From a bacterium (GTDB lineage: Bacteria; Actinomycetota; Acidimicrobiia; Spongiisociales; Spongiisociaceae): a stretch of DNA of 64,000 nt. Under the pieces are notes generated by a model that was not told the origin of the DNA, did not search any database, and saw only the letters and a list, made by a program, of their open reading frames with translations. Shown here one piece after another: positions 1-53,410 of this stretch. Location of the stretch: positions 1 through 64,000 of the forward strand of contig JAPPHZ010000032.1 in NCBI GenBank assembly GCA_028820935.1, given 5' to 3'. Made by a program: the position numbers and the translations under genes. Every line of letters starts with the position of its first letter. The stretch's first letter is position 1.

Positions 1-240
1 GACTCCACGAAACTGGGTATCCATCAGAGCCTCCGAAAAACCCGGAACGGTTCACTCGCACGGTTCGCCGACCTATACGACACCGGCCAAATCCCCGAAT
101 ACCACGACGTGGTGGACAAGATCATCGCCTGGGGCCAAGAAATCTTGGCCTACCACCCCAGCCGACGAGCGACCAACGGACCACTCGAGGGCATCAACAA
201 CCTCCTCCAGGTGCTACGACGCGTCGCTCACGGGTTCACC
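1..240 (+). pseudogene. ISL3-family transposase, 3' part, split by IS110
   Basis: The frame is open from the first base and reads as the C-terminal DDE region of an ISL3-type transposase, with the family-typical stretch TNGPLEGINNLLQVLRRVAH followed by GFT. After GFT the frame runs into the IS110 element and stops at 252 (MRV-stop, encoded by the inserted element). The natural end of the protein is found on the far side of the insertion at 1532-1573. The 5' part lies outside the window. The family call rests on the conserved C-terminal motif; the interruption is seen directly. Confidence 0.85.
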
Positions 241-470
241 ATGCGTGTTTAGATGCGGGTGGTAGGTCCCTGGTGGGGATGGCTCCGCTCACCTTGCCCT
301 TGCCGTTTTGGCGGCTGGTGGCTTCTTAGTTGATTGCCTCCCCACCGGGACTTGCGGCTTGGTGTGTGTCGCTTTATAGGAGCCTGGAGAGGCCACCCAT
401 GGTTCTTCCCCAACGCATGGTTGCGCAGCACCGAGCCGACCTACTGGTCGATACCAGCTCTGTAGGAGAG
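241..470 (+). ncRNA. Candidate bridge RNA of the IS110 element
   Basis: IS110 elements of this layout are known to express a bridge RNA from the left end, with one loop pairing to target DNA and one to donor DNA. Here 289-293 (TCACC) equals the left target flank 236-240, and 327-332 (TAGTTG) is complementary to the core plus right target at 1531-1536. 413-419 (ACGCATG) is complementary to the core plus left end of the element at 240-246. The order target-left, target-right, donor-right is as expected. The left donor guide is not clear (only ATAG/GAGC resemblance near 376-384). RNA ends are not visible from sequence. Confidence 0.6.
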
Positions 471-482
471 GATAGAAGGATC

Positions 483-1526
483 ATGGTGGTTGTAGGGATC
501 GACTCGCATAAGGACACTCTGGCGGGTTGCGCCATCGACGAGGTAGGCCGCCCCCTGGATTACCGGAGCTTCGCCAACACGGCGGCCGGTCACGCCCAGG
601 CGCTGGGTTGGGTTTGCCGACTCGGTGCCGGACGGGTAGCTGTGGAGGGTTCCGGTGGCTACGGGCGGCCGCTGGCTCTGGTACTGGTCGGCGCCGACAT
701 CGAGGTTGTGGACGTTCCACCCCAGATGACGGCCCGGGCCCGCAGGGGACAGCGCAGCCGTCACAAGTCCGACCCAGGGGATGCTGTGCTGATAGCGAGG
801 GTCGGAGCGAGAGAGGATGACCTCCCCCGACCGAGACCTAATGGTGTGATCGAAGACCTGCGCAGCCTGGTCCTATACCGCCATGAACAGGTCTTGGCGC
901 TCAACCGCGAAGCCAACCGCCTCCATGCTGACCTGACCCAGATCCGGCCCGGCTACAAACAGAAGATCCGAGGTCGTCTGACGCGGCCCAGCGCTCTCAG
1001 CCGGGTCGTGCGCCTGGTTTCGGCCGACCGCAGCGTACGGGCTGACATAGCACGGCGGCGGGTACGCACCACCCAGAGGCTGCTAAAACACATCGCCGAA
1101 CTCGATGACCAGATTGGCCAGCTGCTCCACGCGGCGGGAGGCGCCGTCCTCACCGACATCTACGGGATAGGAACACAGAGCGCTGCTGAAATACTGGCCC
1201 AGGTCGGTGACCCCACACGATATCCGACCAAGGCCCGATTCGCCATGGCGAACGGCACCGCCCCCCTCCAAGCCTCGTCCGGGCGGGTAGTCCGCCACCG
1301 GCTCAACCGGGGAGGAAACCGCCGGCTGAACCGGACCATCCACATCGCGGCCATAACCCAGATACGGCGACCAGGAACCGAAGGCCGCCTCTACTACGAA
1401 CGGCTCCAGGCCCGAGGCAAAACCAAAACAGAAGCCATCCGCATCCTCAAACGCCGCATCTCCGACCGGATATGGACCCACCTCCAACACTTATCCACAC
1501 CTCCCACAGCCCCCAACTTGACATAG
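483..1526 (+). CDS. IS110-family DEDD transposase/recombinase
   Basis: The 347-residue protein catalyses RNA-guided excision and insertion of its element. The N-terminal RuvC-like domain shows the acidic residues in GIDSHKD (residues 4-10), VEGSGGYG and KSDPGDA. The C-terminal Tnp domain holds the NGTAPLQASSGRVVRHRLN block, with the serine expected to attack DNA, and the trailing NRRLNRTIHIAA. The start is the ATG at 483, because GIDSHKD normally sits at the very N-terminus; an earlier ATG at 330 would translate the putative bridge RNA. No frameshift or stop is present, so the gene looks functional. Confidence 0.9.
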   Translation: MVVVGIDSHKDTLAGCAIDEVGRPLDYRSFANTAAGHAQALGWVCRLGAGRVAVEGSGGYGRPLALVLVGADIEVVDVPPQMTARARRGQRSRHKSDPGDAVLIARVGAREDDLPRPRPNGVIEDLRSLVLYRHEQVLALNREANRLHADLTQIRPGYKQKIRGRLTRPSALSRVVRLVSADRSVRADIARRRVRTTQRLLKHIAELDDQIGQLLHAAGGAVLTDIYGIGTQSAAEILAQVGDPTRYPTKARFAMANGTAPLQASSGRVVRHRLNRGGNRRLNRTIHIAAITQIRRPGTEGRLYYERLQARGKTKTEAIRILKRRISDRIWTHLQHLSTPPTAPNLT

Positions 1527-1531
1527 AGCTC

Positions 1532-1573
1532 AACTACGACAACTACGCCGCCCGCGGACTACTTGTAACATGA
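1532..1573 (+). pseudogene. Displaced 3' end of the interrupted ISL3 transposase
   Basis: These bases encode NYDNYAARGLLVT-stop. Joined to the GFT ending at 240 they give GFTNYDNYAARGLLVT, the usual ISL3 transposase C-terminus. The two halves can be rejoined without loss or gain of reading frame when 241-1531 is removed, so the split is a single insertion. Confidence 0.85.
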
Positions 1574-3308: not shown

Positions 3309-3572
3309 ATGGCGCTTTCGCAGACGACATCCAGGACGACTACTTTGCGGATTTCGACCGAGTTGAGGGACCAGATATCCCGTTTGGCCGAGCATCGGGG
3401 CACGACGATGGTCGATGTCGTGACCGACGCGGTGCAGCGGCTCGGCCGAGACGAATGGTGGCTGTCGGTTCGCGGCGCGCTCGACGGCCTCGCTGAAGCT
3501 GACGCGGTTTCGTACCGGGAAGAGAGCCGCAGGCTGGAGGCGGCGGCCGCGGACGGCCTTGATGGCCGGTGA
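3309..3572 (+). CDS. Ribbon-helix-helix antitoxin (MazE-like)
   Basis: The 87-residue protein begins with TTTLRISTELRDQISRLAEH, a ribbon-helix-helix DNA-binding fold of the type used by type II antitoxins, and ends in an acidic, flexible tail that would wrap the toxin. It overlaps the toxin gene by 11 bases, the usual translational coupling of such pairs. It likely represses its own promoter and neutralises the PemK/MazF-like protein encoded next. Confidence 0.8.
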   Translation: MALSQTTSRTTTLRISTELRDQISRLAEHRGTTMVDVVTDAVQRLGRDEWWLSVRGALDGLAEADAVSYREESRRLEAAAADGLDGR

Positions 3573-53212: not shown

Positions 53213-53282
53213 AAGAGAGATCGTCGGGTTCCTGGGCGGGAACCTGCACGACCAACCCTTCCTCCGAGAGCTGATACGCGAC

Positions 53283-53410
53283 CATGGGTCAGGCGTCCTG
53301 GCTCGTCCTCACCCGGAGGGGGAGGCTTGACAGTTGCGGGACAGCGCCGGACTCACACCGGACTTCGCTGGTCCCCATGGCACCCGGTTGTCTCTCCGGG
53401 CCGAGACGTA
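53283..53410 (-). promoter_or_regulatory. Cobalamin riboswitch
   Basis: The minus strand reads GTCCGGCGCTGTCCCGCAAC (around 53357-53336), the conserved core of B12 aptamers, and later GAGCCAGGACGCCTGACC (about 53305-53288), the B12 box. An upstream GACAACCGGGTGCC stem fits the 5' domain. The aptamer ends about 75 bases before the btuF hairpin. It should turn the btuFCD-cobO operon off when adenosyl- or methylcobalamin is plentiful. The gap 53213-53282 is the linker between them. Confidence 0.9.

Follow-up and report, generated by a model that had tools for sequence, protein, structure and literature searches.

A probable bridge RNA in the left end of an IS110-group insertion sequence from an Acidimicrobiia lineage

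The DNA analysed here, referred to below as the window, is a stretch of 64,000 nucleotides from a bacterium of the family Spongiisociaceae (Actinomycetota; Acidimicrobiia), positions 1 to 64,000 of contig JAPPHZ010000032.1 in GenBank assembly GCA_028820935.1. Near its start, an ISL3-family transposase gene is split within its 3' end by an IS110-group element (Table 1). The left fragment of this gene matches the NCBIfam model transpos_ISL3 (1.4e-10) in addition to the Pfam family, under the family cut-off on a fragment of 80 residues. The element is single-copy in its own genome, and a relative's genome from the same family contains copies that match it end to end. The empty site (...GGGTTCACCAACTACGACAACTAC... 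at the junction) is seen in uninterrupted ISL3 homologues, one of them from the same genome; in L122, 36 of 37 bases around the junction are identical to the joined flanks. No gap opens at the junction when the empty sites are aligned, which leaves a short core and no other target duplication. The empty site holds one CA and the element is flanked by two; thus, the core is CA, and the element proper is what lies between the two copies. An IS1595-family transposase gene, apparently without its N-terminal part, is found close by (1993-2439), and together the IS1595, ISL3 and IS110 genes make this end of the contig a nest of insertion sequences. Elsewhere in the window, a Cobalamin riboswitch (Rfam RF00174) lies on the minus strand at 53271-53402.

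Table 1. Features of the IS110-group element and its insertion site (window coordinates)
Feature	Position	Strand	Basis
Left part of split ISL3-family transposase gene	1-240	+	Pfam DDE_Tnp_ISL3 6.3e-11; contig start cuts the gene
Core dinucleotide CA, left copy	240-241	+	Same CA at 1531-1532; single in empty sites
IS110-group element without its core	242-1530	+	Copies in a relative's genome match over the full length (1-1289) and stop exactly there
-10-like TTAGAT in left end	249-254	+	Spaced 16 bp from the -35 box once the ends are joined in a circle
Bridge RNA, predicted extent	256-440	+	Covariance model match 257-440 (window sequence in the training set of the model); conserved structure
Target-binding hairpin	269-349	+	Stem 269-283 with 336-349; apical stem 296-303 with 314-322
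Left target guide CCGCTCACCT	285-294	+	TCACC at 289-293 equals 236-240
Right target guide TTCTTAGTTG	323-332	+	Complementary to 1531-1540 at 8 of 10 positions
Donor-binding hairpin	358-435	+	Stem 358-364 with 429-435
Left donor guide ATAGGAGC	376-383	+	Equals relatives' right end ATAGGAGCT; right end of the window copy ATAGAGCT
Right donor guide ACGCATG	413-419	+	Complementary to 240-246
IS110 recombinase, 347 aa	483-1526	+	Pfam PF01548 7e-28, PF02371 2e-18; NCBIfam NF033542 above cut-off
-35 box TTGACA in right end	1518-1523	+	Perfect in 10 of 11 copies
Core dinucleotide CA, right copy	1531-1532	+	As for the left copy
Last codons of split ISL3 gene (NYDNYAARGLLVT stop)	1532-1573	+	Uninterrupted homologues align across the junction

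The recombinase has the DEDD RuvC-like and Transposase_20 domains that the IS110 group requires, and the model whose cut-off it passes, NF033542, is the NCBIfam model for IS110 RNA-guided transposases. It is only distantly similar to the recombinase of IS621 (phmmer 4e-17). When it is aligned to the IS621 structure 8wt6, D7, E55, D97, D100 and S266 fall on the catalytic positions, which in IS621 are D11, E60, D102, D105 and S241 (PMC11208158); the window recombinase thus keeps the IS621 catalytic residues. It also matches ISCro4 (PDB 9t56) at 6e-15, again with the catalytic residues kept. Compared by recombinase, ISCro4 resembles the window element in being of the IS110 family, and its structure is solved, although its sequence is distant.

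A promoter formed at the joined ends has been reported for IS621 (PMC11208158). Eleven copies have both ends available here, and in every one of them joining the right end to the left brings TTGACA and a -10-like box to 16-17 bp from each other. These split promoters score 9 or 10 of 12 consensus bases, judged by sequence only; such a promoter would form on a circular intermediate and, by analogy with IS621, would be transcribed from there.

The left end of the element, upstream of the recombinase gene, is a leader in which an earlier note on this DNA had proposed a candidate bridge RNA (241-482) with guides for target and donor. A bridge RNA is indeed predicted there, but its extent is narrower, with a start at about 256/262 and an end at 440. 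Two long hairpins make up the predicted fold of the leader (fold z -2.7), and the guide segments lie in or beside their internal loops. In an alignment of 14 left ends (the window copy and 13 relatives), the fold is conserved in 33 stem pairs, with 95.8% of cells being standard pairs and 18 stem pairs changed on both sides. The covariation score is 0.377, versus 0.173 after shuffling, and none of 500 shuffles reaches any of the measures; when the stem partners are slid along as a control, pairing drops to 34-54%. RNAalifold also proposed two small in-loop helices, one in the region of each donor guide (left and right); as they hardly vary, the covariation count does not include them. The two-loop structure that had been proposed is thus both predicted and conserved, with compensatory changes in its stems, and the order, target loop and then donor loop, is as the earlier note had it.

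Long, stable hairpins directly upstream of a transposase start could also belong to a structured cis-regulator of the transposase (an attenuator or a translational control element), in which case the short matches to the flanks would have arisen by chance. The RNA matches no Rfam family, which speaks against this interpretation, as does the behavior of the loops among relatives described below. A covariance model built from related left ends picked up more of them elsewhere in the order, including those of a sister clade (see below) that immediately precede IS110 genes whose products are just 35-38% identical to the window recombinase. At L136, L137, L138, L152 and L155, a whole or partial bridge RNA occurs with no related transposase in the approximately 1.5 kb of flank fetched; these are apparent solo left-end remnants.

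The matches between the target loop and the flanks had been described from the window alone: TCACC (289-293) as equal to the left flank, and TAGTTG (327-332) as complementary to CAACTA (1531-1536), with 8 of 10 bases in the extended match. Both are present, and both were correctly assigned, to the left and right target, respectively. The target site of the window copy is GGGTTCAC-CA-ACTACGAC. Its left guide is among the weaker ones, matching at 5 of 8 non-core positions and reading CT versus the core CA (a mismatch at core position 2). Single matches this long are common, a point in favor of chance and hence of a cis-regulator: of the roughly 3,400-3,500 CA sites on each strand, 237 and 250 do at least as well as the left match. 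Left and right guides together match the split site at 11 of 16 non-core positions, a value reached at none of the 6,916 CA dinucleotides that the two strands of the window contain.

What decides the matter is the comparison of each copy's guides with its own flanks and with those of other copies. The register was set by the conserved loop borders, and own and swapped flanks alike had a choice of two registers; under a single fixed register, the genome with six copies (see below) showed no difference between own and swapped flanks, and allowing two corrected this. One element per lineage was used in the permutation tests (nine for the left guide, six for the right). Across nine lineages, the left guide matches its own flank at a mean of 5.9 of 8 non-core positions, versus 2.9 for swapped flanks, and no other of the 9! 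permutations does as well as the true pairing (exact p = 2.8e-6). For the right guide in six lineages, the values are 4.5 of 5 with own flanks and 1.6 with others, the true pairing again being the best of all 6! (p = 1/720, the minimum possible). With twenty elements, the left guide gives p = 1e-6 (the floor of the test), and with the 11 held-out elements found only with the covariance model, 6.1 for own flanks versus 4.1 (p = 3.8e-5); the sequences of L147 and L149 were cut short in these last two comparisons, so that the left-guide test is conservative. Individual agreement can be extensive: the left guides of L142 and L139 match at 8 of 8 positions, and about 13 nt of the left guide in L038 and about 10 nt in L025 are identical to the left junction. 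Several elements score higher with another element's flank (6 rather than 5 for the window copy, 8 rather than 4 for L136); thus, the left-guide signal is statistical and not perfect in each copy. Across relatives, then, the target-loop guides tend to vary together with each copy's own flanks, as far as can be judged from sequence comparison. The earlier note had asked whether, in other copies, changed loops go with correspondingly changed targets, and this is borne out. A cis-regulator does not predict loops that vary with the flanks, and in view of the three left-guide permutation results we consider it very unlikely.

A further arrangement to be considered is that of IS1111-type elements, whose recombinase belongs to the same superfamily and is likewise a DEDD enzyme guided by RNA from a non-coding end, the seekRNA (PMC11187229). 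In that group, the guide RNA lies downstream of the gene and the target matches are reversed (PMC11187229). The window element has its long structured non-coding end on the upstream side of the gene, with just a few bases between the stop codon and the right end, leaving no downstream guide RNA of the IS1111 type, and its target matches are ordered left then right, as in IS110. There is next to no likelihood that the element has the IS1111 layout.

The donor loop can be matched to the ends of the element in the same way. The reported complementarity of ACGCATG to CATGCGT (240-246) is perfect, and its assignment as the right donor guide is right. In L022 and L026, the right donor guide is ACGCACG, and the right-junction core is CG in both; in L022, the right target guide and the right donor guide are both changed to match this core. 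For the left donor guide, the earlier note had found no convincing candidate. One exists, matching the right end of the relatives and not exactly that of the window copy, and it was missed because the window copy's right end has lost 1 bp. Among the 10 other relatives tabulated, 9 have the right end ATAGGAGCT, versus ATAG-AGCT in the window copy, whose guide is unchanged. The tenth, L022, has the right end ATAGAAGCT, and its guide agrees with it, guide and right end sharing a change from G to A (ATAGAAGC in each). Co-variation of guide and donor is partial, the left donor guide contributing this one event.

The loss of 1 bp from the left-donor match means that the window copy may be weakened or decaying. 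A stronger version of this idea is that a once-functional bridge RNA guided the insertion and no longer mobilises the element, the copy being decayed and immobile. It is a variant of the bridge RNA reading and compatible with it, and that the window element is single in its genome fits as well as the shortened right end facing an unchanged guide. Against it, the open reading frame is intact with all catalytic residues kept, the missing base could be an assembly error, and the window element might tolerate a donor mismatch. We give an immobile copy somewhat less than an even chance.

Taken as a whole, the anatomy, the conserved fold, the co-variation of guides with targets, the precise empty site and the conserved catalytic residues make it very probable that this is an IS110-group insertion sequence whose left-end leader is a bridge RNA, with a cycle like that of IS621; RNA-guided insertion, as the earlier note had read the locus, is supported by the fold and by guides that follow the flanks among relatives. 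By analogy with IS621, which is our model for transcription, RNP assembly and catalysis, the element would excise as a circle, and its joined right and left ends would make the promoter TTGACA-16-TTAGAT, transcribing the bridge RNA and recombinase. The target loop would pair with the bottom strand to the left and the top strand to the right of the site TTCAC-CA-ACTAC. For the donor loop, the partner would be the joined ends of the element itself, and strands would be swapped at the CA core by the DEDD/serine recombinase.

As in IS621 (PMC11208160, PMC11208158), the bridge RNA lies in the left end with the target loop before the donor loop, left guides match the top strand and right guides its complement, the core is two bases long, a split promoter forms at the joined ends, and equivalents of D11/E60/D102/D105/S241 are present. 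The differences are a distant recombinase, other guides and another target, and a core of CA or CG (CA in the window, CG in L022) whereas that of IS621, CT, is absent. IS621 targets REP elements; the target of the window copy is a transposase gene. A bridge RNA has been predicted in 85.7% of IS110s (PMC11208160), so that the concept and its broad occurrence in the group are known; what is new is the lineage, with an RNA missing from Rfam. Guide-target matching can be read here from raw sequence in an Acidimicrobiia lineage far from IS621 and with another core, and about 20 natural guide-target pairs are supplied. With a CA or CG core, more kinds of site would be known to be usable.

Natural re-direction between relatives has been described for IS1111-group seekRNA elements (PMC11187229), and one relative's genome (OY282370.1) offers material on the evolution of guide targeting, with near-identical guides at near-identical sites. 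Its six copies (L005, L006, L007, L010, L013 and L097) each sit in a member of a dispersed repeat about 96 bp long, of which there are some 20 or more other matches. Two guide positions are variable, and in five of the six copies both match the site (10 of 12; permutation p = 0.022); the guide of L006 mismatches its site at both. The core varies too: in L005, L006, L013 and L026, the left-junction core (CG or TG) differs from the right-junction core (CA or CG), and some empty repeats have CG as their core (L162, L163), which suggests insertion at core-mismatched targets. The differing cores were also considered as evidence on the order of strand exchange and set aside; replication of a heteroduplex could yield either outcome, and so we make no claim on that order.

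A sister clade (L139, L140, L142, L147, L148 and L149) has the same RNA architecture, with recombinases 35-38% identical to that of the window, the left end AGTGTCATG, an apparent TC core and, in L142 and L149, the right end TTGACATAGGAG. Tentatively, a bridge-RNA lineage with non-CT cores (CA/CG, apparently TC in the sister clade) and six same-genome copies whose single-base guide variants follow the repeat alleles might be a natural snapshot of stepwise guide re-targeting, an interpretation that we put forward as possible and do not favor. No relative was found in the viral contigs searched, and the plasmid collection, at an E-value limit of 1e-40, yielded only distant Streptomyces elements. 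In class- and phylum-wide protein searches, the close clade is almost wholly confined to this order.
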